Origin: Nitrospira sp.
GTDB lineage: Bacteria > Nitrospirota > Nitrospiria > Nitrospirales > Nitrospiraceae
NCBI GenBank assembly: GCA_024998685.1
Contig: JACOEH010000024.1
Span: 1-64,000 of the forward strand
DNA length: 64,000 bases
Direction of reading: 5' to 3'
Positions 1,887 to 58,626 of this stretch are shown piece after piece. Each line of letters begins with the position of its first letter. The stretch's first letter is position 1. The position numbers were made by a program, and so were the translations under genes. Below the pieces are notes generated by a model. It worked only from the letters and a program-made list of their open reading frames with translations, was not told the origin of the DNA and ran no database searches.

Positions 1887-2000
1887 GCAGCCGGATCGTG
1901 CAAACATGCAGATCTCTTTGTGCTTGTCATTCGTGAGGCCGAGCCTGTGAGGACAGTTCCACAGGGATTCATGTCAGAGAAAAGAGCAGAACGCTTCGTC

Positions 2001-2279
2001 TCAGGCTGCCTGTCCGGCGGATCCTCTGGGACGATGGGCCGGTATCCCGTGCAGCATGCCTTCCACGCTGATATCCTCGTCAATGTCAGGCCAGCGCACG
2101 CCCTCTCCGTCACCAAGGATCTCCCAATGTTGTCGCTGCTCCCTGGTGGCGTCTGCTAAGCGCCATGACCAGACCAAGGGCACACTGATCGTCCGTCCAT
2201 CCACCAAATGCCCAATGATCTCATCCTCGGTGACTTCAATGGTGATGATGCGAGGGTCTATCTTCGCCGCAGTGCTCAT
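2001..2279 (-). CDS. DUF2442 family protein
   Basis: A 92-residue DUF2442 protein with ITIEVTEDEIIGHLVDGR, the TREQRQ segment and the signature GVRWPDIDEDISVEGML. ATG at 2279 is chosen because a GGAGG site lies six bases upstream. It overlaps the end of the frameshifted DUF4160 gene (stop at 2236), so this is the second copy of the same two-gene module. The C-terminal tail after GML is longer than in the first copy and reads like loose sequence. Confidence 0.8.
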   Translation of the reverse strand: MSTAAKIDPRIITIEVTEDEIIGHLVDGRTISVPLVWSWRLADATREQRQHWEILGDGEGVRWPDIDEDISVEGMLHGIPAHRPRGSAGQAA

Positions 2280-2500
2280 GCCATGCCTCCATGATCGGCA
2301 AAATATTCGCTTCAATAAGTCGTCGAATGACAGTGAGTTCTCTTGGAGAAAACCCGCTGTTCTTGCTCAAGGCAATCGGTTCCAACCAAAACTTGCACGT
2401 TAACTTTTCTCTTTAGGATATGAACGTGCTTTGGCTCATGACAATCAAAGCTATAGAAGAATACACGGTAGGGGCCTTCAATATTCTTTACCGTGGGCAT
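2236..2500 (-). pseudogene. DUF4160 family gene with a one-base frameshift
   Basis: The frame from ATG 2500 reads MPTVKNIEGPYRVFFYSFDC then HEPKHVHILKRK, a good DUF4160 start, and then turns to nonsense. Skipping one base in the AAAGTTAACG segment (about 2395-2402) restores TCKFWLEPIALSKNSGFSPR and a family-like C-terminus to a stop at 2236. The length of 265 bases fits one inserted base. Its partner DUF2442 gene is intact and overlaps its 3' end. Either the gene is recently dead, or this is a sequencing error. Confidence 0.8.
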
Positions 2501-2551
2501 TGGTCTTCCTTGCGGGATCCGAAAGATCTTGCTCTATGGCAACGCTCGGTG

Positions 2552-3694
2552 TCAGGCCACGTGAGGCCGGTGAATATCCCGTTCGTGACCACTTCCGTTC
2601 ACATTCAACAATCGCTCCAGACACTCCACAATTCGTTCCGCCGCTTTGCCGTCCCACAACGGCGGAATCGCCCCCTTTTTCCACTTCCCCGCCATCAATC
2701 GTGCGAGCGCAGGAGCGAGCTTATGGGGATCGGTCCCGATCAGTTCGTTCGTCCCGATTGTAATCGTCTCCGGGCGCTCCGTGTTATCTCTCAACGTGAG
2801 GCACGGGACACCAAGAACGGTTGTCTCCTCAGTGATGCCTCCCGAATCGGTAATGACGCCTTTGGCATGTTGGACGAGATAGTTGAATTCCAAATAGCCA
2901 AGTGGATCGACGTAGTGAAGCTGCGGTGTCGCACGGTCGAGTTCTCTAAGATTCTTCGCGGTCCGCGGATGCACGGGAAAGACCACAGGCAATCCTTTGG
3001 TGCCGTCGGCAATGGCGCGGAGCAGCGACAAGAGCTGCTGCTCTCCATCGACGTTTGCCGGCCGATGGAGCGTGACGACAAAAAACTGTCCCGCTTTGAG
3101 TTTGAGAGACTGCCAACAAGCCGGAGGTCGCAAGCGCGGCACGTTCTTGAGCAACGTATCGATCATGGTGTTGCCGACAAAAAAGATCCGGTCGTCGGTG
3201 ACACCGGCGCGGCGTAAATTCTCGTTGGCCGTTTCGCTCGTCGTAAAAAACCAATTGGTGATGGAGTCGGTCGCCACCCGGTTGATTTCCTCCGGCATCG
3301 TCCAATCGCCGGACCGAATCCCGCCCTCGACATGGGCCACCCGCACACCCAGTTTTCGCGCTGCGATGGAACAGGCCATCGTAGACGTCACGTCACCGAC
3401 GACAAGACAGAGATCGCTCTTATCCTTCAACAAAACTCGTTCATACCCGACCATGATCCCGGCGGTTTGTTCGGCTTGAGTGCCTGACCCCACTTCGAGA
3501 TTGATGTCCGGATCGGGAATTCCCAGTTCTTCGAAGAAGCTGCCGGACATCGCACGATCATAATGCTGGCCGGTATGAATCAACCGGTACCGTAGCTGCC
3601 CACCACGCAGCTCAGCTGCTCTCAGCGCTTCAATAATCGGCGCGATTTTCATGAAATTGGGCCGTGCCCCGGCGATAAGATCGATGCGCTTCAC
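2552..3694 (-). CDS. wecB: UDP-N-acetylglucosamine 2-epimerase (non-hydrolysing)
   Basis: 380 residues, the normal length of the family. It interconverts UDP-GlcNAc and UDP-ManNAc in the cytoplasm, supplying ManNAc-type sugars for surface polysaccharides. Visible landmarks are the N-terminal GARPNFMKIAP, HTGQHYD, GDVTSTMA, HVEGG, FPVHPR and the C-terminal SGGITEET motif that contacts UDP. The last ~25 residues are an added tail beyond the usual ERIVECLERLL end. It is followed on the same strand by the broken DUF4160/DUF2442 pair and preceded, 292 bases away, by GDP-sugar genes. A decayed copy of its 3' end lies at 275-366. Confidence 0.95.
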   Translation of the reverse strand: MKRIDLIAGARPNFMKIAPIIEALRAAELRGGQLRYRLIHTGQHYDRAMSGSFFEELGIPDPDINLEVGSGTQAEQTAGIMVGYERVLLKDKSDLCLVVGDVTSTMACSIAARKLGVRVAHVEGGIRSGDWTMPEEINRVATDSITNWFFTTSETANENLRRAGVTDDRIFFVGNTMIDTLLKNVPRLRPPACWQSLKLKAGQFFVVTLHRPANVDGEQQLLSLLRAIADGTKGLPVVFPVHPRTAKNLRELDRATPQLHYVDPLGYLEFNYLVQHAKGVITDSGGITEETTVLGVPCLTLRDNTERPETITIGTNELIGTDPHKLAPALARLMAGKWKKGAIPPLWDGKAAERIVECLERLLNVNGSGHERDIHRPHVA

Positions 3695-3986
3695 TCAGTA
3701 CCTCATGACAGGTCAATACAACTTTTCAGTCCGCCTATTGTCGCTGACTCGGAGTCTCATTCAACGATTCAAGCTGACAACCACCATGGGAGCAAGGCAA
3801 ACATGCGAACCATCCGAACGGTCGTGAAGACCAGCCTCATGGTATTGGCTATCAGTTCCCATAGCAAACCAAAACGAGTTTTTATGAAACGGGTGACGCC
3901 GAGTGGATGAACAAGTCGTGACCAGATATTGTTTCGCGCAAGCGAAGTGACTTTCCACTGGAAGAAGTAGGCCTGACCAGAGGCAT
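3695..3986. other. Gap between wecB and the GDP-fucose synthase gene
   Basis: An open minus-strand frame runs from 4032 into this gap, but it starts inside the fucose synthase gene and has no recognised motif. I see no gene, hairpin or clear promoter here. It may hold the worn 3' end of a lost glycosyltransferase gene. Confidence 0.4.
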
Positions 3987-4952
<966 letters not shown>

Positions 4953-42714: not shown

Positions 42715-43106
42715 CTCAACTCCGCATTCATCTGGCGAGCCGCAACCTCCCGCCACGCTTCACGAAGCGTGTTCAGGCATCGCAATGGTCCGGTCAGGCG
42801 ATGAGGATTATTGCGAAGGTTGGCTTGAAGGATCTCCGCCAACATATAGTCGTAGAGACGAAAAAGAGATTTAGCGATGTCGCCGCCTCTTTCAAAGTCG
42901 AGGACGTTTGACAACTCGGTTACGATGGCGACCGCCCGTCCAAGAAAGCGCGCTTGATCCTGATAATTATTCTGACTCATGCCTTCGCGGGCGAGTTCCA
43001 GTGATTGGATGGCAGAATCGTACAGCAGCACGATCAATTGGACTCCCGACGTCGTCAAGACTTGAGTTTGACGGTATTGATGCGCCCCTTGGCTAAGTGT
43101 CAACAT
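42711..43106 (-). CDS. fliS: Flagellin export chaperone FliS
   Basis: 131 residues with the FliS features YRQTQVLTTSGVQLIVLLYD and a C-terminal helix LRCLNTLREAW. FliS caps flagellin to prevent early polymerisation. Its start overlaps the fliD stop (TAATG), and its stop overlaps fliT. Confidence 0.93.
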   Translation of the reverse strand: MLTLSQGAHQYRQTQVLTTSGVQLIVLLYDSAIQSLELAREGMSQNNYQDQARFLGRAVAIVTELSNVLDFERGGDIAKSLFRLYDYMLAEILQANLRNNPHRLTGPLRCLNTLREAWREVAARQMNAELR

Positions 43107-44548
43107 TATGCAGTCCTTGTTGTGGATTGGCTCGATTGCAGCGTTGCGCCGCTCTGAGCGTTGGAATTGGCCGTCAAGAAACCGATCTGACCTTGGATGC
43201 CGGCAAGCAAGCTATCCAGTTGAGCGAATTGCAACTGAAGCCGCTGCTGATACTGGGCGATATACTCCTGTTGAGTTGCGATTCGGTCTGTCAGACTGTT
43301 GATCTTGTCCGTCAACGAGTTTTGCTTGAGTGTGAGAACTCCACCGGCCACATCGTTGAGATCGTCTATGGCGCTGCTCAGCTGCGTTGCAATACCAGGA
43401 TTCCCGATCTGTCCACCCACAAGCGCTTTCACTGCGCCGTAGTTGGAGTTTAATGCCGAGCTCAGCGCCGCATCATCGAGGGTAATGGTTCCATCTTTAT
43501 TAGTTTGAAAACCGATCTGGCCTAGGTTGGTATAGGTCGTGGCGCCCGACACCGCGCTGCTGAGGGAAAATCGTAACTTGCTGAGCACCGTATCGGGCGT
43601 TCCTTCTGCGAAGAACGTTCCACCCGTATTTGTTTTGGAATCGTATGTGTTCTTGCCGGCAATGAAATTCACGACATCGTTATAGGCCGTCACAAGAGCT
43701 TTGATATTCGTTTTGACGGCGCTGGAATCCTGGGTGACGCTGACATTGACGGATCCGGTGCCTGTCATCTTGGTGAGATTCAGCGTCACGCCGGGAATTG
43801 CATCCGAAATGGCGTTGGTACTACGGATGATTGTCACCGGATTCAGATTGGGATCACCCACTTTGATCTGTGCGTCCAGCGCCGCTTGAAGCGTATCGAT
43901 GCCGCCAGTCCCGCTGGAGTTCAGAAAATCCATGGACGTTCCATCCGTCGTGATGGTGATGGCACTGCTGGATCCGGTACTGTTGGCCGTCAAAATGAGC
44001 CGATAGGAGGGAGAGGTATCCGTGCCCGTGTTGAGAATCGATGCGCTCACCCCAGCTCCTAGGTCATTGATACCGTTGGCCAGATCCTGAATGTTTGCAC
44101 CAGCATCCAATGTAACTGTCTGAACGGAACCCGAGCCGATGTGGAATGAAAAAGTTGCCGATGGGCCGCTGACGATAGGAGCGGTCATGCTGGTGACGGC
44201 TGTCGCCGCTTTGTTTGCAATCTGGTGGGCTTGTGCCAATTGACTCACTTGAATGCTATAGGTACCGGTGGTGGCGGTCGATGACGCCGTCGCCGTCAAG
44301 GTTGTGGAGTCGGTGACTGAGGCGGACGGTTGATTATAATTGATCACATTTAAGGCGCTCGTTGCGCTCTGAAGAGACTGTAGTTTCGTCGATAGAGTGG
44401 TGTAGTCCGCCGACTTCGCTGAAAGGGTATTTTGTGTCTGCGTAAACCGGTTGAGCGGGCCCGACGCCGCCTGGACCAAAGCATTGACGACTTGTGAGTA
44501 ATCGAATCCGTTGCCGAGTCCCCCGAAACTGACCGTTGGCGTCGTCAT
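43106..44548 (-). CDS. fliD: Flagellar filament cap protein FliD
   Basis: 480 residues: N-terminal FGGLGNGFDYSQVVNALVQA, a Thr/Ser-rich middle (FliD_N and FliD_C domains), and a C-terminal coiled coil (LTDKINSLTDRIATQQEYIAQ, RLQLQFAQLDSLLAGIQ). It caps the filament so that flagellin can add. It starts nine bases after flaG. Confidence 0.95.
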   Translation of the reverse strand: MTTPTVSFGGLGNGFDYSQVVNALVQAASGPLNRFTQTQNTLSAKSADYTTLSTKLQSLQSATSALNVINYNQPSASVTDSTTLTATASSTATTGTYSIQVSQLAQAHQIANKAATAVTSMTAPIVSGPSATFSFHIGSGSVQTVTLDAGANIQDLANGINDLGAGVSASILNTGTDTSPSYRLILTANSTGSSSAITITTDGTSMDFLNSSGTGGIDTLQAALDAQIKVGDPNLNPVTIIRSTNAISDAIPGVTLNLTKMTGTGSVNVSVTQDSSAVKTNIKALVTAYNDVVNFIAGKNTYDSKTNTGGTFFAEGTPDTVLSKLRFSLSSAVSGATTYTNLGQIGFQTNKDGTITLDDAALSSALNSNYGAVKALVGGQIGNPGIATQLSSAIDDLNDVAGGVLTLKQNSLTDKINSLTDRIATQQEYIAQYQQRLQLQFAQLDSLLAGIQGQIGFLTANSNAQSGATLQSSQSTTRTA

Positions 44549-45956: not shown

Positions 45957-45985
45957 TTATCGGTCAAGGGAGGCCTTGACTTGAG
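45957..45985 (-). promoter_or_regulatory. Sigma-28 (FliA) promoter of fliC
   Basis: On the minus strand CTCAAGTC, twelve bases, then GACCGATAA fits the FliA pattern TAAAGTTT-N11-GCCGATAA, with a near-perfect -10 and a weaker -35. It faces fliC with a ~130-base leader. Flagellin genes are normally read by this sigma factor. Confidence 0.7.
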
Positions 45986-46020: not shown

Positions 46021-46581
46021 TCAATGAACACCCATGGATTGCGGGTTCGTTCCCCATGACCTGATCCTCGGCAGCAGCTCATATTCGAGCAGATCCGCCA
46101 TGCGAACGATGTCGGGAATGCCTCGGGCTTCGATAAATTGCTCAGTCCATGGTACGAGCGAATCGTGGGGTATTCCGGGAATCCGCATCTCGATCGAACG
46201 CTCTACGATTTCAATGTACTCAGCCAGCTTCCCTAACCAGCAATCCAGTGAGGACAATCTGATCGTACCGCTCCGCATAAGAAGAACCATAGTCTCTCCC
46301 TCATGTTTGAGCAACTTGCCAAACTGTTCGATGGTGTCCTGCGCCTTGAGGAGAATGTCGGCCGCCGAAGTCGAACTCGCTTCAACTGAACCAGTCTCCT
46401 CCCCGGAGCATGCCAGAAATTCAGGAACCAAATCACGATCCGTGCAGAGACGACCTCCAACCCTTAATGAGGTGACGATTCGTCCCTTGCCGCGTGATTT
46501 TTCGCTCAGTTGAGCCAATGCCTCGATAAGGGAAATATCGTCCCGAACCGTCCATTGCTCGTCATCTAGTGAAATCTCCAT
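46021..46581 (-). CDS. Hypothetical protein next to flagellin
   Basis: 186 residues from ATG 46581 (GGAG five bases upstream). The first ~60 residues, starting MEISLDDEQWTV, look like a small beta/ubiquitin-like domain. The rest is helical (SAADILLKAQDTIEQFGKLL, LEYELLPRIRSW). I do not recognise the family. It is the last gene of the glycosyltransferase operon and directly precedes the flagellin promoter. Confidence 0.75.
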   Translation of the reverse strand: MEISLDDEQWTVRDDISLIEALAQLSEKSRGKGRIVTSLRVGGRLCTDRDLVPEFLACSGEETGSVEASSTSAADILLKAQDTIEQFGKLLKHEGETMVLLMRSGTIRLSSLDCWLGKLAEYIEIVERSIEMRIPGIPHDSLVPWTEQFIEARGIPDIVRMADLLEYELLPRIRSWGTNPQSMGVH

Positions 46582-46606
46582 GGCTTCTCCTTCTTCAAAT
46601 TGGTCC

Positions 46607-48292
46607 TCAACCGCGAAGGTGACTGGCACCCGCAACATGTCTGACCGGCGTGATCAGTTGAGTGGAAGCCGGCATGCGTGGGCTCATTCCAATGTATTGC
46701 TCGACGTCTGCTACCCGCTTTTGCCACACATGATGCGCGCGCAGTTGGCGCGCCGACATTTTCGTAAGGTCTTGAGCATCGTTATTGTGAATCTCACGCA
46801 GAAAGGCGACCGTAATGGGAATTAAGGGCGAGCTCATCATCGCCGACTCCACAAGCTCTTGTTGCTCTTTCAGTAATACTGTTTGGACGGCTTTTAATTC
46901 TGCCACTGGCAGCGGTTGCCGCTGACAGAGACGGTCGAGCTGTTCAGATCGAGACACGAGTTTGGCCAATGCTGGCCTCAACGCCCGAAGCATCAGACTG
47001 ACATCCTCGCGATCCGGAGGATCCCCTGCTGGCCACTCGACCGCCGAAGACCGGCCCGTAAACGACTCATACCAAAAACGCCTCCAGAAACGGGCGTACC
47101 ATTCGGTCTGAGGATCAGTGGCTCCCGATCTGATCGTGAATGTGCCTAATCCATCCGCATCGATCCCGGATTCGTAAATTCTGATGCCGCCAATACGGGC
47201 CGGTAACGGCCCTGCTCGTACCACATGCCGACACACGGCAGCGACATCCTCGCAGACCACTTGATCCTTACAGGCATGGTGCATACAGACTCGGTCGAAT
47301 CCACACGGAGCACAGAGCAGTTCCGGCTGGATCACCCAATGCCCGGGTCCATATGGACCGGTCTCCCAAAAATTCACGTGTCCGACGGACAGATCGACCA
47401 CAGGAGTTCGGACACCGACGGCGAGATGCATCGGCCCTGTATCATTCGTCAGGAGAAGCCGAGCATGAGTTAACAAAGCCGCAAGTTGCACCACATCAGT
47501 GCGTCCGACCGCGTTACACCAGACGGCCTTGCCGCCTGCCTCACGATATGCGATTCGCGCCTGCTCCACGGCGCCGGCTTCTTCCGTCGTACCGATCAGA
47601 AGAAAGCCCATGTCTGTCTCCCGACTGAGCAAAGCCATTGTCCTCCCGAAGTATTCGGGACGCCACGCCTTCATGGCGTCGCTGGCGCCGACTTGTACGG
47701 CAATCGTGTTCGACACACCAGGAAGATTGGAGTGCAGGAACGATTCGGCCCATTCCATGGCATCTCGTGGAACCGAAAGCAGCAAGAGATCCGCCGGCCC
47801 CGGGCCGCTTCCGCCGAGGGCATAGATATCCACCAGGTTAAATCGGTTGAACCGCCGATAGGCATGGCAATCGGTAAAGTAGGACATCCATTGGTTCTTG
47901 ACGATCGGGGTGCCGTCCATCGCGCAGACGACGCCGCGCAGATCAGGTGCACCGATATAGCTGGCAAGAAGCGCGCTCCGCCTATCGAACGTCAGATTAA
48001 CGATGCGATCATAGCCGACTTCCAGCAGCGGCTTGATCCAATCCGCCATCGTCCGGTATACCTCGATGAGGTCTTTGACCATGGCCCGCGTGTCGTCGAT
48101 CAGACCATGGAAATCGTACGTGACGATGTGCCGAAGGCCGGGCAACATCGAGACGACTGGGGCAAACTTGATATCTACGATGAGATCGACCGATGCGTCA
48201 GGGAATTCCGTCCGCAATCTGGCAAGTAGCCCGCTCATCTGCACGAGGTCGCCCATCCGCGTTATGTTAATGATGAGTATCTGTTTGCTCAT
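46607..48292 (-). CDS. Glycosyltransferase family 9 protein with long C-terminal extension
   Basis: 561 residues from ATG 48292, which overlaps the upstream stop (ATGA). Residues 1-350 are a heptosyltransferase-type GT-B fold (IINITRMGDLVQMSGLL, VGASDAMKAWRPEYFGRTM, LLTNDTGPMHLAVGV). A Cys-rich patch follows (CAPCGFDRVCMHHACKDQVVC), typical of some GT9 enzymes, then a ~200-residue helical extension of unknown role. Substrate unknown. The position beside flagellin rather than among LPS core genes argues against a standard heptosyltransferase role. Confidence 0.88.
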   Translation of the reverse strand: MSKQILIINITRMGDLVQMSGLLARLRTEFPDASVDLIVDIKFAPVVSMLPGLRHIVTYDFHGLIDDTRAMVKDLIEVYRTMADWIKPLLEVGYDRIVNLTFDRRSALLASYIGAPDLRGVVCAMDGTPIVKNQWMSYFTDCHAYRRFNRFNLVDIYALGGSGPGPADLLLLSVPRDAMEWAESFLHSNLPGVSNTIAVQVGASDAMKAWRPEYFGRTMALLSRETDMGFLLIGTTEEAGAVEQARIAYREAGGKAVWCNAVGRTDVVQLAALLTHARLLLTNDTGPMHLAVGVRTPVVDLSVGHVNFWETGPYGPGHWVIQPELLCAPCGFDRVCMHHACKDQVVCEDVAAVCRHVVRAGPLPARIGGIRIYESGIDADGLGTFTIRSGATDPQTEWYARFWRRFWYESFTGRSSAVEWPAGDPPDREDVSLMLRALRPALAKLVSRSEQLDRLCQRQPLPVAELKAVQTVLLKEQQELVESAMMSSPLIPITVAFLREIHNNDAQDLTKMSARQLRAHHVWQKRVADVEQYIGMSPRMPASTQLITPVRHVAGASHLRG

Positions 48293-50106
48293 ATAAGATC
48301 TCGGGTCTGCGCTCGATATTCGTCCAGCATCAGAACCAACAACTCTTCTCGGGATAACGTCGCCGTCGGTCCACGATGCCGTATGCGCTCGGCCACCTGT
48401 TCGAGCTCCACACGTTGGGTGACGGAAAAATTCTTGAGCAACGGGACGAGTTCTTGATGATCGACGCATCGCCGACTGAGTTGCGCCGCTTCACGCTCCC
48501 CCTTTAGGATGGTTCCGACGCGGTCGGGCTGAGCCATGCCGACCTGGGTCAGAAGTTCCTTCATTCGATGTTGATACGTGTGCTCACGTACCACACGATC
48601 GAACGCTGCCCGTGCCATCGCTCTTCGAATATCGGCCTCATGGAGCGCTGCGCGGATGCGCTGCGGCAGCTCCTCGAACGTTTGGAATGTCGCCATCTCT
48701 TCTTGAGTGAACAGTTCACCGAGGAGTGAGCGGTGATCGACGAGTTGAAAGGCTCCGCACGCCGCCAACTCGAACGTTCGGGGATTGACGAAATCGGCTT
48801 CAGGATCGAGTCCTTTGCCGGTATGCGAGTGCAAGTTAAGGTTGACGGTTGTGGCGTTGAAGACTTTGATGCAGGTCTCGGTGTCTATCCGCACCCCCCC
48901 TCGTTGCAAGACGGGTTCGATGGCGGTGGCCCCATCCCATTCGTTTCCCCACACTTTTAATCGCCATTCAGGTGTGATCAACTGAGGAAGAATCTCCCTT
49001 CGATTCGCATAACCTGCGCCGACAAATGACACGTCGGCTCCGAATTCCTCCATCTCATCCGAAGTGAGCGACACTGTCTTGTGTGCCGCGAGGTCCGCCG
49101 CCACGGGGAGGTAATGGATCTCCTTGGCCCCGGCATGACGGAACGCATCCAAGCATGCCCCTTTTTGAATCACGAACCAGAAGTCGAATCCCGCCGCCAT
49201 TTGTTGCCAGTACGTCAGGTGGCGGTAGTTTTCGACGAACCACATGGCGGTCAGAAAATGCTTCTTCCGAACATGTTCGAGAACCGACAGGGTCATCGGC
49301 GCCTGGGCCATGGCCAGGACCAGATCCGGCGGACGTTCCGCGATCCGCACGAGAGTCAACTGGCTGAGAAATTCGGCGAACTTGTTTTGCATCACCTGTC
49401 GGTGGCGGGCATCCTCCAAACGGGCCAGCGCGTGGTAACTGGTGGCATGCGCGCTATGGTCGATCCAATCGACGTGATGGCCGAGTGATTCCAGAGCCGT
49501 CACAACAGATCTGGTGACCGGAAGAGAGCCCCCATAAATCGGACCCACAACGGCAATTCGAAGCTGACCGCCGGCAGCATGGGCGATAGAGCGTCGCACA
49601 CTCTCCTCGATCGCGGCATGCGCATCGGGATGTAATCGGGCAGCCGGCACATAGGTCATGAACCTCACGGAAGATCCGAGTTCCATCGTACGCCTGGCCA
49701 TGGAATGAGGCACTCCCCACACCCAGGTCACACGCCTGGCCCAATCTCCCCACGCCCTCACGGCACAGGCGTCATGCAATTCGACCAAGTCTGGAACAGC
49801 TACCACGATGCGAATGGATGGAGGAAGCACTTTGCAGAGGGCCTCCACGTGATAGAGCAGACCGATCCCGAACACGAGGACGACGTCTCCCTCGCGGCAA
49901 GACACGATCTGAGCTGTTGCCCAAGAAATCGATTCTTTGACTGGATCGTAGGTGCTGTGGATGGCGCGGCCCTGCGCGAAACCTGTAGGGTATCCGGATT
50001 TCGCCGGTCGAATTTCGAGTCGCCCACCCTGCGCAGCACGCAGCGCCGCCGCGAGTTCCGGTGATTGTTTGGCGATTTCACGGAGATTCGCTTCAAACAC
50101 ACTCAT
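48289..50106 (-). CDS. CgeB-like glycosyltransferase with Maf-like N-terminal domain
   Basis: 605 residues from ATG 50106, overlapping the previous stop. The first ~190 residues (VVLVFGIGLLYHVEALCKVL) resemble the N-terminal part of Maf/DUF115-type motility-associated glycosyltransferases. From ~195 a CgeB/DUF3880-type GT-B domain follows (LRIAVVGPIYGGSLPVTRSV, MWFVENYRHLTYWQ, VSFVGAGYANRREIL, NPRTFELAACGAFQLVDHR). A helical tail ends it. A flagellin sugar transfer role is inferred from domain type and locus. Confidence 0.82.
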   Translation of the reverse strand: MSVFEANLREIAKQSPELAAALRAAQGGRLEIRPAKSGYPTGFAQGRAIHSTYDPVKESISWATAQIVSCREGDVVLVFGIGLLYHVEALCKVLPPSIRIVVAVPDLVELHDACAVRAWGDWARRVTWVWGVPHSMARRTMELGSSVRFMTYVPAARLHPDAHAAIEESVRRSIAHAAGGQLRIAVVGPIYGGSLPVTRSVVTALESLGHHVDWIDHSAHATSYHALARLEDARHRQVMQNKFAEFLSQLTLVRIAERPPDLVLAMAQAPMTLSVLEHVRKKHFLTAMWFVENYRHLTYWQQMAAGFDFWFVIQKGACLDAFRHAGAKEIHYLPVAADLAAHKTVSLTSDEMEEFGADVSFVGAGYANRREILPQLITPEWRLKVWGNEWDGATAIEPVLQRGGVRIDTETCIKVFNATTVNLNLHSHTGKGLDPEADFVNPRTFELAACGAFQLVDHRSLLGELFTQEEMATFQTFEELPQRIRAALHEADIRRAMARAAFDRVVREHTYQHRMKELLTQVGMAQPDRVGTILKGEREAAQLSRRCVDHQELVPLLKNFSVTQRVELEQVAERIRHRGPTATLSREELLVLMLDEYRAQTRDLI

Positions 50107-51284
50107 AGCAGGACGTTCTCCCGATCGTCCATCGACATGCAGTGTTTCCAGACGGCCATTCGATCGTCGACGGAGACATTCGATTGGCCGGGGCGCGAGT
50201 AGCTCATTCCCCACTCATCGACATGCCCCTCCCATAACTGCCACCCGGTACACTCCGTCAATTGTGGGACACTCGTCTGGGCGACGATGAAATCGAGACT
50301 TTCGTCGATCGGCCAGGTATCCGGAGCGAATGTCGACGACTGCCAGACCCGATGTTGGTCTCCGTACGGACCGGTTTCGTGAACACGTGCACGCGCAAAA
50401 TATAGACCGAGCGTTCGGCACCCGACAGCGGCCGCAAGATGCAGAGAGCCCGTATCGCTGCCGATCGTCCAATGGCAGCGAGAGAGCAGTAGGGCCAGTT
50501 GCAGTAGATTCGTATGACCCGTTGCATCCCAAACGCGCCCCCACAGTAACGGCGAAAGAGTCTCTTGAATGGCGCGGCTGCGTCCGATCTCCCCACTGCT
50601 TCCGATGAGAACCACACGAATGGCGGTATGGGCGTTCAGAAGCGCAGTGATCCATCGTGCCCAAATCGCAGGGGGCAGGCAGCGGGCAAGATCTCCGGCC
50701 CCTATGATCACAGCCACCCAGTGATACCGAGGATCGCCGACTTTCTCTAGACTTCCTGGAAGATCGGAAGCATGAGGAGTAATTCGAGGCACTCTACCAG
50801 GGGGCATGACGCCACATAGACCGCAGAAGGCATCGGCGAGGTGAACATGATTCGCACTCCGGTCTCTGGCCACCTTCCTGAGATAAGTACCCCAAGGCGG
50901 AAGATTCTCATATAACGGTCCGGCAGAGCCCGGTCCGACAACCCGCCTGCCGAGCAAATGCGCCGCTAAAATGGCACGGGGATGCTGATTGAGGTTGTAC
51001 ACGGTATCGTAGGTCTGCGCGGCCAGTTGATGTATGTGGTCTTGCGCTGCCGTCATCGTTGAATCGGGAGAATTGGTCCAACCTAACGCCCACTGTTGCC
51101 ACTGATCCGCCTCCCATGGAACGGCTCTTGCCGTTCCATGGAACAACGACACGATATCGGTCAACGTTGAGGCGCAGAGCAGGTCAAATCGCTCGCCGGC
51201 ATATCGGGCCGTCAACGAAGTGATGGCCGGAAGTGTCTGGAGCAGGTCCCCAAGCCTCGCCAGTTGCACGATCAGTGATGCCAT
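50103..51284 (-). CDS. Glycosyltransferase family 9 (heptosyltransferase-like)
   Basis: 393 residues, GT-B fold. N-terminal SLIVQLARLGDLLQTLPAI and C-terminal TIGSDTGSLHLAAAVGCRTLGLYF with HETGPYGDQH are the donor-site signatures of the family. It lies 12 bases after the giant glycosyltransferase gene and overlaps the CgeB-like gene. Its sugar is not predictable. It is shorter than its cousin at 46607-48292 and lacks the Cys patch and extension. Confidence 0.9.
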   Translation of the reverse strand: MASLIVQLARLGDLLQTLPAITSLTARYAGERFDLLCASTLTDIVSLFHGTARAVPWEADQWQQWALGWTNSPDSTMTAAQDHIHQLAAQTYDTVYNLNQHPRAILAAHLLGRRVVGPGSAGPLYENLPPWGTYLRKVARDRSANHVHLADAFCGLCGVMPPGRVPRITPHASDLPGSLEKVGDPRYHWVAVIIGAGDLARCLPPAIWARWITALLNAHTAIRVVLIGSSGEIGRSRAIQETLSPLLWGRVWDATGHTNLLQLALLLSRCHWTIGSDTGSLHLAAAVGCRTLGLYFARARVHETGPYGDQHRVWQSSTFAPDTWPIDESLDFIVAQTSVPQLTECTGWQLWEGHVDEWGMSYSRPGQSNVSVDDRMAVWKHCMSMDDRENVLL

Positions 51285-51296
51285 GGATGCACCCTA

Positions 51297-54200
51297 CTAA
51301 TTTGATGCTTCGTATGCCAGGACCGCTTCTTTGTTCGCCAACGCCTGGCCGAGTTCGAAAAGGCCGTCATAATTCGGCTCGAGCATACGCAGTTGCCCGT
51401 ATTCCCGCTGAGCGTCGTCCAGTTGCTGGGCACGTAGCAGGACACTAGCCAACGCAAAACGCACTGCCAGATCACCTGGATTTCTCATGACATAGGCGCT
51501 CAGTTGCCCACACAACTCTTGCCAACGGTTTTGCGCCGTGCCGGCCCGGAGCAACCAATGGATCGCCTCGGCATCGTCGGGGTTTTCAGCCAACACCTCA
51601 AGAAACCGTTCCCAGGCTCCTTGTGTGTAGGCCCTTCCCATTGCCGCCATCCCCATTCCCATTAGACATTTTTTGCGATCGGCGCCCTCCTGCCGCGCCG
51701 AAGCGAACGCACCCTCCGCTTGCTCGTATTGTTCCCGTTGCATACAGAGAATGCCTTTGAGCAAGAGTCCTTCCGCATGATTCGGTGAAGATGCGAGCAA
51801 CGATTGCAAATGGCTGTCCGCCCCGCGCAGATCTTTTTGCTCCAGTAAGGAGCGGATGAGCGACAATCGTTCCTTCGGAGCTTCTTGCAAAGCAAGATAC
51901 CGGGAGAGGAATGCTTGTCGCAGTATCGGTTCCTGTAGATGTTCGCAGACAAATGACGCCCAGGCCAATATCGCAAGATCGTTCGGCCAGTCCGCAGCCA
52001 GACTCAATTCTCGCTTCACTGCCGGCCAGTCTTGCTTCAAGGCGGCGGCTTGAGCGGCTGCGACGTGGGCCCAGGCTGCGCGATCCTTGATATCGTTGAA
52101 CATGTGGATGTCACCCCCATCACGCCCGTTGCGAACCACTCGTTTGAATTTGAAACCGTCCACATGGAAATGCAGGTCTTCGTCGGCCGCCCACCATTGC
52201 GCCTTCCACCGATCCAAGAAACGAGTCACATTCGCATCGTCGTGGAGCTTCCTACCGGGAGTTTGGCTTTCGAGATGAACGACGACGCTTCGTGGTTGAT
52301 AGACGACGACGGAACCGTGCTCTTGCACTTTCAGGCAAAGATCCGCATCTTCGAATCCGTTCACGTACCCTTCGTCGAATCCCCCTACTTCGTCAAACAA
52401 GGCTCGCCTGATCAACAAGCAGGCGGCCGTGACGATTTGAAATTCTCGTCGCTGATTCACGGCCGGATGGTCGCCGGCAAAGGCTTTGTAGATATGGTAG
52501 GGCAAGCGGTGCGCACAGTTTCGAACGACGCCGGCATGTTGAACCGTGCCATCAGGGTACAAGAGCTTGCTGCCGACAATACCCACCTCCGCGTGGTGGT
52601 CTACTTCCGCCACCAGCGCCGCCAGCCATCCCGGCTGAGGAATCGTGTCGTTGTTCAGGAAAATGAGGTATTTCCCTCGGGCGACTGCGGCTCCCTGATT
52701 GCAAGCCTTGGCGAATCCGAGATTCTCCTCGTTGGCGATGATCCGAACATCTCCACTCAGTCGGCGGAGAAAATCCGCCGTGCCGTCGGTGGACCCATTG
52801 TCCACGATGATCAGTTCGTACTCCGGCTGGTCTTTCAATCGGGCTAGTGCCGTCAAACAATCCTTCGTCAGTTCCACTCGGTTACAAACCGGCATGACGA
52901 TGGAACAGATATAATTCTTGGCGCCTCCGATCGCTCGCATCTCGGTGAGCCGTTTGTCCTGCGCTTCGCGCACACCGGCGATACGGTCGGCATAGGGCAT
53001 GTATTTCCGGTAGATGATCTCCGTCGTACGCCAATAGGTCTCACGCATCCCGCTGGTCATGGAACTTCCGTCGGTTCGCCAGGTGAACTCGGCCGTCCTG
53101 ATCGGCAAGTGCTTGAACGGAAACCGAGTCGCTATACGGATCCAGAGATCCCAATCTTCATGGGCAAAGAGAGATTCGTCGAATAGGCCCACCTCATCGA
53201 GACAGGCTCGGTCGTGCATCACACAAAGAACCGGAAAGTAGTTGGACACCAGTAGATCCGCCGGTTTGAAGTCATAGGAGTACGGCACATCGCGCCCCGT
53301 CTCGACATAACCGCCGTCGCTCCGTCGTTCCTTCACTCGCCAGGCATCAGTGTACGCGACTCGGCATTCACGGCGATCCAAATAGCCGGCAAGCGTTTCT
53401 AAATGATTCGGGAGATACCGATCATCGTCATCGAGATAGGCGATATAGGTGCCCTTCGCCGCACGGACGCCACTGTTGCGGGCTGCAGCCAATCCACGGT
53501 TTCGATCGTGGGTGATGGTCGTGATGCGGTATCGATCGGCACAGGCAGCCACGACGGTCTCCACGTCACAACCGGCATCGTTGACGACGATGACCTCGAA
53601 GTCTTGATACGTCTGCGCGGCCAGGCTTGCGAGCGCTGTCCGGAGACGATCGGGACGATTGTATGTCGGGACGATGACGGACACTTTCGGTGTGCGTGTA
53701 AAAGGAACGGAGACGTCGGCGGTCCGTTGGCAGACCCATGCTTGATAGATGGGAAGCAGATTCATGGAGCGGAGATCGGCCGGGGTGGGCGCCGGCACGT
53801 AGCGCAAGCCCGGAACCTCGACATGAATACGGTCCAGTCCCATTTCGACGAAGCCTTGTGAGTTGAAGAGAGCACGCAGTTGTTCTTCGGTCACCCAGTC
53901 TTCCACCGGTTGGTTGGGCGGCGCGATGGTCTTCCACTGTTCCCACATTTCACCGCGCGGAGTCGTGAGCACGACGTACCCGTCCGGCTTCAACAGTTTG
54001 AACAGTTGCGCGAGGAAGTATTCTTTTTGGCCATGAGGCACGTGCTCGATGACTTCCGACGTCAGAATCACCTCGTAGGGTTCGAAATCGTCGCGACCCG
54101 ATATGATCTCCGCCGTCCCCGCTTCAAACCGAAGATGAGGAAACAGCTTGCGCGCATGCTCGACGACACCGGCGACCGGCTCGACCCCTTCGCAGGTCCC

Positions 54201-57200
54201 GTATATGGTCGCCAGATTCGTCAGCCACCCTCGCCCACATCCGACATCCAGCATACGCAGCCGCCGGCCGGGCTCCTTCTGTTGAACCCGGCGAAGAATG
54301 TATTCCAGAAACGCCGCGATCTTGCTCCACCGTGCCGCCTCGTCGGCGTTCGGATGCGGCCCAGACCAAGCCGGAGCATTGACGAACAAGTTTACATAAA
54401 ACGCGTCCGAGTTCATGGTCCCTCCGTTAACTTGTTTCGCCACATTGTCTGTCGACGGCCCGTTTCCGGCGATTGTCGTCCCGCCGAATTCCGGCTCGGC
54501 TTGTTCCAATTGTGTCCAGAAGGTTCGCCGTTGCGCGGTTGTACGTTCAATCAAGTCCGGCGGCATCGCATAGGATCTGGTCAAGTGTCCTGTTTGAATC
54601 AATTCGATCCATCCCTCCAACACACAAGACCATTGGCGACAAGCTTCCCAGTGCGCATAGCCCGTCTCGCCAAATGCTCGGCGCAATGTCGGCTTCTTCA
54701 TCAGCAGGGTAACGGCCCGTCGGAAGTCGGCTAAGGAAATCACCACGCCGCCGGCTTGTTCCTGCGCGGCGTCGCATTCGGGCGTCGCCATCCACGGCAG
54801 TCGATGGCTCATCGCTTCAAGAATGCACAATGGAGAGGCTTCTGCATGCGAGGGTAATATCAGGACATCCGCCGCCTGCATGGCAGCGGCGACGCCCTCG
54901 GGCGAAAGCCCGGGAATATAGAGTACCTCCGGCCGCCCTGCCAGCGCCCGCCGTACTTGCTCGACATATGCGTCGTTATCGGTCGGGTGACCGACCAAGA
55001 CGAGCTTTGCGCCTTGCGGCACAGGAGCAAACACTTCAAGCAGCCCTAGATGATTTTTAACCGGGTAGAGGTTCGCGACATGGAGAATGAGGAACGCGTC
55101 GGACGGAATTCCGTGTTCCTTGCGAAACTCTCCGTTGGACTGCTGCGCCTGAATACCGTTGGGCAGATAGGTCGTCTTGAGACCATGTCGGCTGAAGAAA
55201 GAGGCATCGGAGCCTCGTTCCGACAACACGACCACGTGATGGGCATGAGCCGTAAGCCGAACCACCAGGTCTTTGACATGACTCATGCCGGACGACAACA
55301 ATTCGCAGATTTCTTTGTTCAACGTCGGCTGAAAGATCAGCCGGGTCCTGTCCGGCAACAAACCGGTCATGGCTCCATAGAACAGACTATTGACCGGTGC
55401 GCCTAACATCACACAGGCGTCGTACCGACCGGAGCTGATCAGCCGCTCCACTTCCAGCGCACAGACATGGACAGTTCCTTCTTGTCGATCATGGGGAGAC
55501 AACGTAATGATCGTAAGCCCACGGTACATCGTGAGATGTCGCTCGGCATGCGGATAGGCGGCAATATCGACGCGGTATCCATGGTTCAACAATCCGACTC
55601 CAAGCTCTTCCACAACACGCTCCACTCCCCCGACCGATGGCCAAAAATGCGGCGTCACAATCAGTATTGATTTGGTTCCCGCTTCGTTCTTCCGCTTGGT
55701 GGCACGGTCCGCAACTGAGGGGGGTGGATTTCGATCGCTTTCGCCCTTCCATTGCACCTGTTCGAAGGGAATCGGCTCGTGAGCGAGCGGCACCTGCCGT
55801 GCGGCGACATAGGGTTGTGTCAGCGGCGGATCCATCAGAAAGAGCCGCTTGAACACATCGAGTTCGGGAAGATCATAGACACGGGCATCCTTCTCGCGAT
55901 CGGCCGCCAGCGGGGCGCTGATGATACCGTGCGATGCGCCCATCAATGCAAAGAGCTGCAGCGGATCGCCGGATTGCCGGAATGCATCGGCCTTCCGGCG
56001 GATGTCGGACGTCAGGACGTTCCATTGCCGGATGTCCTTTTCATACATGGTCTTGTAACGGCGGTAGATCGTGTCGGGTGTATAAACAGTCCCGTGCTGC
56101 CCTTTGACGTCCGGATGGAGAATCCACTGGATGCCGCGGCGGCCCATCTGCGCCAAGAGTTCCATCTCGCTGGCCTTGACGTCTTGGAACATCAACGACT
56201 TCATGAGCGCCGTTCGATAGATCTTGACTCCCTGGATCGGCAAACCGCGATCTTCGTCGAACAAATGGAAGCAAATCATCCCGACATCGTCTGGCGCAGC
56301 CGTCATCACATTCTCCATCGAGGCCACGGCATCCGGCGTCAAGACCATATCTTCGTCGACTTGCACGAAGTAGGGTGTGTCACATCGATCTATCATCGCT
56401 TGCGCCGCGGCGCTGAACGGACATACATTGCGGATAATGTCCAGCTTGAACGGCGGTCCTTCTTGTTTGTGCAGTGCTCCTAGGCATACCTCGAAGGCAG
56501 GATCACCGACCGTCAGCACGAAGACCGTAGTGGCGACGTGTCTCTCTTCGCCGGATCGGTCGGCAGTAAGCCGGGTCAACGAGTGAGGCGAGCGTGCATC
56601 CGGGACAGCTGTCTTTCCCGTATCATTGTGAACCATGAGAGACTGCCCGGTCTCAATCCAGTCCAGCCACTGCCGTGCACGAGCTTCTGCCGTATGCGAT
56701 CGAAGTAATTCCAGGCGGGCAGCTGTAGCGATGTTTCCGGCGTAGTCAGCGTCACGTCCTACGCGCTCCGCATGTTCCTTCAAGATTGATGGACGATCCT
56801 TGGGATATAAGAGAATTTCGCGCCCCTCTTCAAAGAGGTCCTGTGTGCGGGGTCGATCGGGAATCTTCCATGAGATGACAGGACGACCCGCCGCCATGGC
56901 TTCCACAACACGTCCTGCATAGGATTGAAATAGGCTGGGGAGATTGACGATTCCGCTCCAAGGCTTGAGGCTCGACAGCCAATTGGCGAAAATGGCTTCG
57001 CGCAACCGGCGCCACAAGCCCACATACTCCGTGAGGGCGGCGGGATCAGGGCGCCATCCCGACTGCAACCGCTCAGACATCTGCTGATGCAATGCATTAA
57101 AGCACTGGGGAAATGTTGTCTCCGCTTCTGCGGACGGCGGATGGATCAGCACATCCCTCAAGCCAGGCATGGTCAACCATGCCTTCCGCTCTCCGTACAG

Positions 57201-57752
57201 TTCCCCGTAAAATGCGGCTTCACGGCGGGGCGATCGCTCGATCGTTGCAGTAATGAAACGGGACGGCACCGCTGACGGCCAAAATACGGCTTGAACCGAA
57301 CCGGCTTGATTGAACACGTCGGCATCGCGCTCGTCCGCAGTCAGCACATGTGTCATATACTTCACTTGCCGTTCGACAAACCCGGCCCGTTCTCGCAAGT
57401 GCGGCCAACGTCGATACTCTTCTTCGCTATACCGCAACGACTCCATGATGAGCCCGACCCTCACCGGCGCCAGTTCGGCAAGCCAGCCAAGAAACGCATC
57501 CGAATAGCGATTGTGCACCAACCATACCCAGACCTGATCGAAGCGTCTGCCGGTCAAGAGGTCTTTCGCATGGTGCAGCCAGGACAACGGCGAGGTGTCC
57601 GGAATGTCGCAGAGTGCCGGAATCGTCACGCACTCACACTCGTTGGCACGAAGGCCGTCCTCAACCGCAAAGTTTCCCAAGTAGGACCACGCTCTTGCCC
57701 GATCCCACGTCCCGAATTCCAATTGCACCAAGAGAATTTTCGGTTTCTCCAT
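51297..57752 (-). CDS. Giant multi-domain glycosyltransferase/methyltransferase with TPR repeats
   Basis: A single uninterrupted frame of 2,151 residues. Residues 1-370: CgeB-like GT-B domain (PKILLVQLEFGTWDRAR, FQSYAGRVVEAMAAGRPVI). 405-640: GT-A-like domain (VFVLTVGDP, YFVQVDEDMVL). 695-1055: GT4 domain (HFWPSVGGVERVVEEL, VANLYPVKNHLGLLEVF, PSHAEASPLCILEAM). 1113-1320: SAM methyltransferase (MLDVGCGRGWLTNL, SEVIEHVPHGQKEYF). 1355-1600: GT2 (SVIVPTYNRPDRL, IAYLDDDDRY). 1615-1870: second GT2 (SIVMPVCNRVEL, IFLNNDTIPQPGWL, GFEDADLCLKVQEHG). 1890-2140: TPR-like helices. No membrane helix or signal. An assembly line for a methylated glycan on flagellin is inferred. Confidence 0.93.
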   Translation of the reverse strand: MEKPKILLVQLEFGTWDRARAWSYLGNFAVEDGLRANECECVTIPALCDIPDTSPLSWLHHAKDLLTGRRFDQVWVWLVHNRYSDAFLGWLAELAPVRVGLIMESLRYSEEEYRRWPHLRERAGFVERQVKYMTHVLTADERDADVFNQAGSVQAVFWPSAVPSRFITATIERSPRREAAFYGELYGERKAWLTMPGLRDVLIHPPSAEAETTFPQCFNALHQQMSERLQSGWRPDPAALTEYVGLWRRLREAIFANWLSSLKPWSGIVNLPSLFQSYAGRVVEAMAAGRPVISWKIPDRPRTQDLFEEGREILLYPKDRPSILKEHAERVGRDADYAGNIATAARLELLRSHTAEARARQWLDWIETGQSLMVHNDTGKTAVPDARSPHSLTRLTADRSGEERHVATTVFVLTVGDPAFEVCLGALHKQEGPPFKLDIIRNVCPFSAAAQAMIDRCDTPYFVQVDEDMVLTPDAVASMENVMTAAPDDVGMICFHLFDEDRGLPIQGVKIYRTALMKSLMFQDVKASEMELLAQMGRRGIQWILHPDVKGQHGTVYTPDTIYRRYKTMYEKDIRQWNVLTSDIRRKADAFRQSGDPLQLFALMGASHGIISAPLAADREKDARVYDLPELDVFKRLFLMDPPLTQPYVAARQVPLAHEPIPFEQVQWKGESDRNPPPSVADRATKRKNEAGTKSILIVTPHFWPSVGGVERVVEELGVGLLNHGYRVDIAAYPHAERHLTMYRGLTIITLSPHDRQEGTVHVCALEVERLISSGRYDACVMLGAPVNSLFYGAMTGLLPDRTRLIFQPTLNKEICELLSSGMSHVKDLVVRLTAHAHHVVVLSERGSDASFFSRHGLKTTYLPNGIQAQQSNGEFRKEHGIPSDAFLILHVANLYPVKNHLGLLEVFAPVPQGAKLVLVGHPTDNDAYVEQVRRALAGRPEVLYIPGLSPEGVAAAMQAADVLILPSHAEASPLCILEAMSHRLPWMATPECDAAQEQAGGVVISLADFRRAVTLLMKKPTLRRAFGETGYAHWEACRQWSCVLEGWIELIQTGHLTRSYAMPPDLIERTTAQRRTFWTQLEQAEPEFGGTTIAGNGPSTDNVAKQVNGGTMNSDAFYVNLFVNAPAWSGPHPNADEAARWSKIAAFLEYILRRVQQKEPGRRLRMLDVGCGRGWLTNLATIYGTCEGVEPVAGVVEHARKLFPHLRFEAGTAEIISGRDDFEPYEVILTSEVIEHVPHGQKEYFLAQLFKLLKPDGYVVLTTPRGEMWEQWKTIAPPNQPVEDWVTEEQLRALFNSQGFVEMGLDRIHVEVPGLRYVPAPTPADLRSMNLLPIYQAWVCQRTADVSVPFTRTPKVSVIVPTYNRPDRLRTALASLAAQTYQDFEVIVVNDAGCDVETVVAACADRYRITTITHDRNRGLAAARNSGVRAAKGTYIAYLDDDDRYLPNHLETLAGYLDRRECRVAYTDAWRVKERRSDGGYVETGRDVPYSYDFKPADLLVSNYFPVLCVMHDRACLDEVGLFDESLFAHEDWDLWIRIATRFPFKHLPIRTAEFTWRTDGSSMTSGMRETYWRTTEIIYRKYMPYADRIAGVREAQDKRLTEMRAIGGAKNYICSIVMPVCNRVELTKDCLTALARLKDQPEYELIIVDNGSTDGTADFLRRLSGDVRIIANEENLGFAKACNQGAAVARGKYLIFLNNDTIPQPGWLAALVAEVDHHAEVGIVGSKLLYPDGTVQHAGVVRNCAHRLPYHIYKAFAGDHPAVNQRREFQIVTAACLLIRRALFDEVGGFDEGYVNGFEDADLCLKVQEHGSVVVYQPRSVVVHLESQTPGRKLHDDANVTRFLDRWKAQWWAADEDLHFHVDGFKFKRVVRNGRDGGDIHMFNDIKDRAAWAHVAAAQAAALKQDWPAVKRELSLAADWPNDLAILAWASFVCEHLQEPILRQAFLSRYLALQEAPKERLSLIRSLLEQKDLRGADSHLQSLLASSPNHAEGLLLKGILCMQREQYEQAEGAFASARQEGADRKKCLMGMGMAAMGRAYTQGAWERFLEVLAENPDDAEAIHWLLRAGTAQNRWQELCGQLSAYVMRNPGDLAVRFALASVLLRAQQLDDAQREYGQLRMLEPNYDGLFELGQALANKEAVLAYEASN

Positions 57753-57770: not shown

Positions 57771-58268
57771 CTACGCCGCCAGCTTCTGACGAAGTTTTTC
57801 CACCAACCGGTCGAACTCGGCTAATGCAGGATCCGGCATGAAATCGACGCGATTGCGTTCGTAGTACTGTAACGCTTCACGATGCGCTCCCTGTTCACAC
57901 ATCGTAACCATTCGGTCCACAAATTCTTGAAGCGACATCGATGATCGCTTGCTCGGATCACCCATCTCGGTGATGTCACTCTGGTCTCCCCAACTCGGCG
58001 CGCTCCATTGCGTCCCTTCGCTCAACGCCTCCGGCTCGATGGGCAATAAGAGTCCTCGATCTTTGGTCACCGGCACGTTGAGGCGAACACGCTTGAAGCA
58101 TCGCGGACAGCCGGTAATCATTTGCAAACCGTTCTTCGGAACGTTCGCCGGATCGGTCAATTCCACAAAGGAGAAGGCTCTTGCGCAATGAGGGCACTCG
58201 GTGAACAACTCCCAAAATTGTCTGGTTCCTCCCGCAGTCATACGATTGCGAAATAGGCGAATCCGCAT
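57771..58268 (-). CDS. Hypothetical zinc-ribbon-like protein
   Basis: 165 residues (ATG 58241 is an alternative start). Two Cys pairs, CPHC near residue 25 and CPRC near residue 54, suggest a zinc ribbon. The C-terminal half is helical (MSLQEFVDRMVTMCEQGAHR, LAEFDRLVEKLRQKL). It starts the glycosyltransferase operon, 18 bases before the giant gene. The family is not recognised; a scaffold or regulatory role for the enzymes is possible. Confidence 0.8.
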   Translation of the reverse strand: MRIRLFRNRMTAGGTRQFWELFTECPHCARAFSFVELTDPANVPKNGLQMITGCPRCFKRVRLNVPVTKDRGLLLPIEPEALSEGTQWSAPSWGDQSDITEMGDPSKRSSMSLQEFVDRMVTMCEQGAHREALQYYERNRVDFMPDPALAEFDRLVEKLRQKLAA

Positions 58269-58626
58269 GAAAAGTCCAACGGCGCCAAAAAAGAGGAATA
58301 CTGGGTCGTATAGTCGTATAGCGGTATGTCGGCGGTATCAACAACACCTTCATCTCGTACCTCGTGTCATCGAATGAATGTCACATGGTGTCGCTTCAGC
58401 ACTTTGAACAATGATCTTTCGTGGACGCTGCCGACATGTTTCGTTCAGCTGTTGATGGGTTATCAAAATCTGTGCCATCACGGTGGTCCGTTCGACGAGT
58501 ACGTTTACAAGCGAATGATTGCCGACGACACGGTGTGAGTGCTGACCGGGCAAATTCTGCCGATCACGATCGGCTAGGCACAAGGAAATCCTTGACCAGC
58601 TGCCTGAGGATGAGTGTGCTGTAAGG
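58269..58626. other. Upstream region of the glycosyltransferase operon
   Basis: About 360 bases without a convincing gene. The operon promoter for 58268-46021 should lie here, but I see no clear sigma-28, sigma-54 or sigma-70 match. Confidence 0.4.

Follow-up and report, generated by a model that had tools for sequence, protein, structure and literature searches.

What does a reading frame of 2151 codons do in the flagellin locus of Nitrospira, when most of what is known of flagellin glycosylation comes from pathogens, where it is encoded by islands of separate genes? The window analysed here is a stretch of 64,000 nucleotides of Nitrospira DNA, and the initial annotation of this frame, made from the letters alone, had read it as one continuous chain of glycosyltransferase (GT), methyltransferase (MT) and TPR domains beside flagellin. 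The continuous frame holds up and its strand is corrected, since the plus strand across 51297-57752 is full of stops and the real frame lies on the minus strand. A 2,153-aa ortholog, 89% identical, sits in a 4.69-Mb genome assembled as one contig, and the chromosomes of N. moscoviensis, N. defluvii and isolate UBC2 also encode long orthologs (1613, 1800 and 2185 aa, respectively); the giant is therefore not an assembly artefact. No 19-residue window of the protein reaches a hydropathy of 1.6. The genes are co-oriented in the order giant-GT9b-CgeB/DUF3880-GT9a-u205-flagellin-FliD, with the giant first. Thus, the giant is "next to flagellin" in a wide sense only, as four co-oriented genes intervene and flagellin starts 5.5 kb downstream.

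Table 1. Features of the giant gene, its modules (D1-D7) and its neighbours in the window
Feature	Position	Strand	Basis or remark
FliD filament cap	43106..44548	minus	PF07195, PF02465
Flagellin, 275 aa	44998..45825	minus	PF00669, PF00700
Sigma28-like -10 element of flagellin	45957..45964	minus	sequence motif
u205, conserved protein	46021..46638	minus	conserved neighbour in relatives
GT9a, heptosyltransferase-like	46607..48289	minus	PF01075; 560 aa in most relatives
CgeB2, CgeB/DUF3880 glycosyltransferase	48289..50106	minus	PF13524, PF12996; 605 aa in most relatives
GT9b, heptosyltransferase-like	50103..51284	minus	PF01075; conserved neighbour
Giant modular glycosyltransferase, 2151 aa	51297..57752	minus	ATG start, intact frame
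D7, TPR tail, constant end, residues 1876-2151	51300..52127	minus	Pfam TPR_19 (1969-2025)
D6, GT2b	52173..52928	minus	Pfam GT2 stretch (1617-1789); GT-A model
D5, GT2a, residues 1349-1605	52938..53708	minus	PF00535
D4, SAM methyltransferase, residues 1109-1345	53718..54428	minus	PF13489 Methyltransf_23 (1159-1301)
D3, GT4, residues 696-1055	54588..55667	minus	Pfam GT4 (875-1032)
D2, GT-A domain without Pfam family, residues 396-690	55683..56567	minus	model and Foldseek, QVDEDM
D1, CgeB-like GT-B, residues 1-385	56598..57752	minus	Pfam PF13524 Glyco_trans_1_2 (273-364)
Remnant, last 162 aa of B12-binding radical SAM gene	57771..58268	minus	intact gene in relatives

The domain set first proposed (CgeB-like GT-B, GT-A, GT4, methyltransferase, two GT2 domains and TPR) was confirmed by Pfam and, for the GT-A domain, by a structural model and fold comparison. 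D2 residues 396-690 match no Pfam family and a sequence search against solved structures gave nothing useful, so that fold comparison settled its identity: a model built from 12 orthologs (mean pLDDT 67, with much of model residues 10-160 at 80-95) matches GT-A glycosyltransferases in Foldseek (best E about 1e-6). We do not rely on the outer parts of this model because, among the five that were made, one was clearly better than the others. Polypeptide GalNAc-transferases are the best match of the GT2b model (Z 22.9); this fold is common to many GT-A enzymes acting on sugars. Catalytic motifs are conserved across nearly every relative. The G-R-V and E of the D1 motif SYAGRVVEAMAAGRP are invariant (36/36 relatives), as are QVDEDM of D2 (19/19), both glutamates of ExSPLxxLEAM in D3 (19/19) and YLDDDD plus HEDW in D5 (50/50); the glycines of the D4 SAM motif are retained in 41-42 of 42 relatives. 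GT2b is present in all 84 relatives of our set.

Those 84 relatives range from 446 to 3,496 aa and fall into about 25-30 architectures, all of which have GT2b-TPR as their C-terminal end while the modules ahead of it vary; FkbM methyltransferases, extra GT4s and a B12 radical SAM domain are among the front modules of other species. A tree built from the neighbouring genes of 67 loci requires at least 39 changes of architecture. Through this turnover the module order D1 to D7 is never permuted, MT is directly followed by GT2a in 42 of 42 cases, and GT2a by GT2b in 50 of 50. Locus L074 combines a flagellin 98% identical to the window's with a giant that has no D2-D3. In L132 the giant is split into separate genes for D1-D3 and D4-D7, and in L148 D2 and D3 are stand-alone genes; as far as the contigs reach, both sets still head the GT9b-(CgeB-GT9a) genes, so these split forms do not refute the reading first proposed. 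In four giants (L126, L128, L137 and L148) two or three GT2b-TPR units are joined in series. Units within one such protein are 43-50% alike, whereas their likeness to units of other species reaches 80%; we therefore reject recent internal duplication as their source, and the end-to-end joining of older units is a better fit. Stops in a match had hinted at a GT4-module remnant upstream of the 1,040-aa giants of G012 and G017, but tblastn did not confirm it.

Is the giant, then, an assembly line? The initial annotation likened its ordered domains to a template for a defined methylated oligosaccharide, which goes further than the sequence can show. Several catalytic modules in one chain and their exchange between species are both present here, as in PKS and NRPS systems. 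By analogy with PKS, the modules might act in a fixed sequence, each adding or tailoring one sugar on flagellin held by the TPR, module exchange would rewrite the glycan, and the multi-unit giants would make longer or several glycans; we think this unlikely. We stand evenly divided on a plainer account, in which ordinary soluble transferases were fused by chance and work through freely diffusing intermediates, the fixed order reflecting shared ancestry and blockwise recombination. That almost all relatives retain the fusion through heavy turnover, and that adjacent pairs never vary, tells against chance fusion; the modules that occur as separate genes at the same locus in L132 and L148, the domains lost from L074 without loss of the rest, and Pfam scans of 14 such giant proteins, which found no carrier domain, all favor it.

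The constant end behaves differently from the modules ahead of it. Between the window and loci L069-L072 the giant is 83-91% identical in nucleotide sequence and the neighbours 64-77%, and the giant was therefore exchanged as a cassette; the high-identity tract starts some 50 bp ahead of the start codon and fades 35-50 codons short of the stop. When pairwise identities were correlated with those of neighbour genes from the same loci, the TPR gave 0.74-0.83, close to FlaA and FliD (0.77-0.89), and the catalytic modules gave far lower values (GT2b 0.33-0.44, GT2a 0.41-0.43, MT 0.28-0.43 and CgeB 0.09). TPR sequence thus tracks flagellin and the neighbour genes and the catalytic modules do not; judged by its sequence, the TPR end evolves as if it were part of the flagellin locus. 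The fading of the tracts towards the 3' end of the giant gene would alone be enough to make the TPR track the locus; even so, it is doubtful that this end is constant as a landing site where incoming cassettes undergo homologous recombination, instead of as a dock for flagellin. The 5' edge of the tracts lies just ahead of the start codon, where there is no comparable constant domain; L067/L068 have GT4 in place of GT2b and retain the TPR; and the multi-unit giants repeat the GT2b-TPR pair.

The tie of this multi-enzyme glycosyltransferase to flagellin, claimed at the outset, is borne out across genomes. Giant, GT9b, CgeB2, GT9a and FlaA occur together, in unchanged gene order, in 67/67 loci in which all four genes could be scored; the other 17 of the 84, most of them cut by contig ends, were left out of this score. 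Among 35 genomes of the genus, 31 have both giant and flagellin and four have neither (Fisher 1.9e-5, uncorrected for kinship). At the order level, G046 and G053 have flagellin and no giant, and their flagellin is a different form of 610-630 aa; no clear flagellin was found within the stretch examined at L131 or at three loci outside Nitrospirales (L136, L146 and L147). The middle of the window's flagellin (126-200) is 28-33% Ser/Thr, and u205 has no match in Pfam or NCBIfam. In 70 of 83 loci a sigma28 motif was located no more than 260 nt from flagellin, whereas only one of 84 giants has it within 300 nt, so the two proteins are probably not co-expressed. Being linked to flagellin and lost with it is no proof that the giant has flagellin as its acceptor; that the same enzymes act on FliD, on a different part of the flagellum or on a polysaccharide of the cell surface, the flagellin link being genomic only, seems to us quite improbable, given the joint presence and absence in the genus, the constant gene order and a TPR that tracks the locus, even though GT9 enzymes are often LPS heptosyltransferases (the matches here are all below cut-off), HldE is present in the genome and the giant has its own expression signal.

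We consider it likely that the giant is a cytoplasmic, modular polyglycosyltransferase that makes the O-glycan of flagellin before export, and that species swap its modules and keep its TPR end. We propose the following roles and chemistry. The TPR tail would dock flagellin, partner enzymes of the locus, or both, and the constant GT2b beside it may act at or near Ser/Thr of flagellin. The front modules (GT2a with its methyltransferase, GT4, GT-A and the CgeB-like GT-B) would lengthen and methylate the chain, a task shared in other species by FkbM methyltransferases, extra GT4s or the B12 radical SAM domain, and the separate conserved enzymes GT9b, CgeB2 and GT9a could add more sugars. Swap, gain or loss of modules would then alter the flagellar glycan between species while the TPR end is kept.

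If so, an order of nitrifiers and their relatives seems to encode a variable flagellar glycan within one gene among constant neighbours, and a constant tail with reshuffled modules suggests a natural means of changing the sugars that coat the flagellum. The turnover suggests strong diversifying pressure on Nitrospira flagella, for which phages or grazers are our guess. Such a natural series of module combinations on a fixed type of flagellin would let glycan structure be read against module content across species, and would show how glycosyltransferase domains recombine into working chains, which would be useful in glycoengineering.

How does this locus compare with known systems? Maf/nonulosonic acid glycosylation of flagellin is rejected, as this genome lacks a Maf protein (PF01973) and has no PseI over cut-off, the two markers of that pathway searched for; RmlD is present. 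OGT/SPINDLY (GT41) is rejected as well, with no GT41 among the giant's 25 best Pfam families (to E 0.06) and a GT2 as the TPR-adjacent transferase. Multi-domain polysaccharide synthases such as chondroitin polymerase and WsaE, a methyltransferase-rhamnosyltransferase of S-layer glycans, likewise combine more than one GT or MT activity in a single protein, but are not flagellar, are lipid-linked or polymerising, and have no TPR tail. The combination had been thought undescribed for flagellin; GT-methyltransferase fusions, TPR-flagellin binding and GT-TPR chains are in fact published (PMC5207246, PMC4875605, PMC7591256, PMC9638930), and it is the size and the modular turnover that we did not find described. 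Our searches of open full text found nothing relevant on flagellin glycosylation in Nitrospira, and our queries for multidomain flagellin glycosyltransferases found no description of them.

In Listeria GmaR a GT is followed by a TPR in one soluble chain of 637 aa that glycosylates flagellin, and the TPR is proposed to recognise it (PMC9638930). In the giant, too, a TPR comes after a GT2 domain of the same chain, and we call this end GmaR-like in layout only; in sequence the GmaR GT domain is matched at E 1.5e-7, the general GT2 level at which chondroitin synthase and others score better, and no GmaR TPR chain is among the 60 best matches listed. GmaR has one GT and an antirepressor domain, whereas in the giant as many as five more catalytic domains precede the GT2b-TPR tail and we saw no antirepressor. 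Caulobacter FlmG also joins a TPR, shown to bind flagellin (PMC7591256), to a GT in one cytoplasmic protein; however, its TPR is N-terminal, its GT is a GT-B domain and its donor is pseudaminic acid. In C. difficile type B, sequential GT2-family enzymes (GT1-GT2-GT3) lie beside flagellin, of which GT2 includes a methyltransferase domain and attaches two rhamnoses together with methylation; these are separate genes of one or two functions, and the portions of that source drawn on here describe no TPR tail or module exchange (PMC5207246). Finally, enterobacterial flagellin islands contain GT41-methyltransferase fusions and variable glycosylation gene content (PMC4875605). The Nitrospira locus resembles such islands in that glycosyltransferase genes lie in the flagellin locus and vary between relatives, but the enterobacterial islands vary between genes, whereas Nitrospira varies inside one gene and keeps its neighbours constant.

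The frame that the initial annotation had proposed for a modular glycosyltransferase (GT), hereafter the giant, is confirmed (see table), and the plus strand over the same interval carries many stops. Its seven modules, D1 to D7, were named there as a CgeB-like GT-B, a GT-A-like domain, a GT4, a SAM methyltransferase (MT), two GT2 domains (GT2a and GT2b) and a TPR tail; Pfam matches support all of these except D2, which belongs to no Pfam family, but a model of it derived from 12 orthologs shows a GT-A core predicted with confidence and resembles GT-A enzymes in structure comparison. Among relatives, the QVDEDM of D2 and both glutamates of GT4 are each kept in 19/19, the DDDD and HED motifs of GT2a in 50/50, the ED of GT2b in 83–84/84 and the MT glycines in 41–42/42, so that every module is probably catalytically competent. 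The giant has no hydrophobic stretch of the membrane-helix type and so is predicted to be cytoplasmic.

We compared 84 full-length giants from Nitrospirales, with a few from outside this order; in public data the nearest relatives all belong to Nitrospira. GT2b ends the module series in 84/84 and is followed by TPR in 83 to 84, and ahead of this unit there are some 25–30 distinct arrangements, an approximate number since module assignment by our own profiles is coarse. These include CgeB-GTA-GT4-MT-GT2, CgeB-MT-GT2, MT-GT2, FkbM-GT2, three consecutive GT4s, a DUF3880-like GT with two GT2s, a CDP-glycerol transferase-like domain with MT, and an N-terminal radical SAM fusion. A tree of four neighbour genes requires at least 39 arrangement changes over 67 loci, and even near sisters differ (for example L080/L085 and L073/L139). 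No permutation of the D1–D7 order was seen, the four flagged cases being proteins with repeated units; GT2a directly follows MT in 42/42, and GT2b directly follows GT2a in 50/50. Giants of 2,496–3,496 aa at four loci (L126, L128, L137, L148) have two or three GT2b-TPR units, and these are 43–50% alike inside one protein and up to 80% like units of other proteins, which points to fusion of separate older giants rather than recent duplication. Modules also occur as separate genes of the locus: L132 has D1–D3 and D4–D7 in two frames, and L148 has D2 and D3 upstream of its giant (1997–4105). In L048/L074 (a 1420-aa giant) the TPR frame breaks near its end and resumes in another frame (176 aa), which could reflect phase switching, an error in sequencing or a frameshift that arose recently.

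Pairwise TPR identity tracks that of the neighbour genes (rho 0.74–0.83), as does that of flagellin and FliD at slightly higher values (0.77–0.89), and rho is low for GT2b (0.33–0.44), GT2a (0.41–0.43), MT (0.28–0.43) and CgeB (0.09); each comparison used the same loci throughout, with bootstrap intervals. In four relatives (L069–L072) the giant is 83–91% identical to the window's in DNA and the downstream genes only 64–77%, the high-identity tract beginning some 50 bp ahead of the start codon, where the fetched sequence reaches that far, and ending 35–50 codons short of the stop. At L074 the flagellin is 98% and the neighbours >92% identical, but D2–D3 are missing, with the joins in linkers. 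The giant is accordingly transferred as a cassette and edited module by module. The constancy of the TPR could stem from recombination edges near the giant's 3' end, a rival to the role at flagellin proposed below.

The giant heads a co-oriented series in which it is followed by the heptosyltransferase-like GT9b, a CgeB/DUF3880 glycosyltransferase (CgeB2), the heptosyltransferase-like GT9a, a 205-aa protein (u205, a possible partner or regulator), flagellin and FliD, with flagellin starting 5.5 kb downstream of the giant. GT9b, CgeB2, GT9a and flagellin could all be scored within the fetched stretch for 67 of the 84 giants; 15 of the other 17 have truncated contigs, edges, too-short stretches or one broken gene (L106, L109), and L131 and L136 show none of the four there. 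L131 and L137 are two giants on one contig, and L131 lies away from flagellin within its fetched stretch. At L109 (15393–17000) GT9a is shortened and flagellin and FliD were not found, the giant and genes further downstream being still present, possibly a recent filament loss. The window's genome is 98.8% complete and falls in a genus with many such genomes; giant and flagellin are both present in 31 genomes of this genus and both absent in 4 (G002, G014, G015, G020). Two genomes of the wider order (G046, G053) have a long, different flagellin and no giant, and none of the 59 related genomes was seen to carry a giant without flagellin.

Features of the giant and its surroundings
Feature	Location	Strand	Remarks
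Giant	window 51297-57752	minus	2,151 codons, ATG start, uninterrupted
u205, conserved 205-aa protein	window 46021-46638		before flagellin in nearly all loci; no known family
Sigma28-like promoter of flagellin, CTCAAGTC-N12-GCCGATAAG	window 45957-45980	minus	conserved
B12-binding radical SAM remnant	window 57771-58400	minus	C-terminal 162 residues only, in frame; intact copies in relatives
B12-binding radical SAM domain, N-terminal module fused in giant	L099 7349-11623		Pfam
B12-binding radical SAM domain, N-terminal module fused in giant	L100 7001-11620		BLAST

A sigma28-like promoter lies in the flagellin leader of 70/83 loci and before the giant in 1/84, and the window has one before flagellin and none before the giant; given this distribution, expression of the enzymes probably precedes that of flagellin or is separate from it. 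Immediately upstream of the giant, close relatives with the full-length arrangement encode a 629-aa B12-binding radical SAM protein, and about 1.3 kb that L033, a near relative, has at this place is missing from the window, where the remnant lies. More distant radical SAM genes occur upstream of 18/19 D2-containing giants (the window's remnant included) and about 17/65 without D2, by a hand count that ignores kinship. The upstream enzyme may tailor a glycan sugar.

GmaR adds GlcNAc to Listeria flagellin, which its TPR is proposed to hold (PMC9638930), and the TPR of Caulobacter FlmG was shown to bind flagellins (PMC7591256). Because GmaR has the same GT2-then-TPR layout as the giant, and given FlmG binding, we propose that the constant GT2b-TPR end would work at flagellin, that the variable modules would lengthen and methylate the glycan, and that GT9b, CgeB2 and GT9a would be constant separate partner enzymes; we infer flagellin as the acceptor, along with the sugars and the order in which the steps occur. 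In the window's genome RmlD scores over its cut-off, so that dTDP-rhamnose can probably be made. This genome also has HldE for ADP-heptose and lacks Maf, and PseI falls below its cut-off. The initial annotation held that such a combination is not known to be described for flagellin. Parts of it are published: fusions of MT and flagellin GT, in enterobacterial GT41-MT (PMC4875605) and in the type B GT2 of C. difficile (PMC5207246), and flagellin GTs that contain TPR; the open full text searched yielded no paper on Nitrospira flagellin glycosylation or on giants of this kind. Relative to these systems, what distinguishes this presumed flagellin glycosylation locus is that its variation sits within one modular gene.
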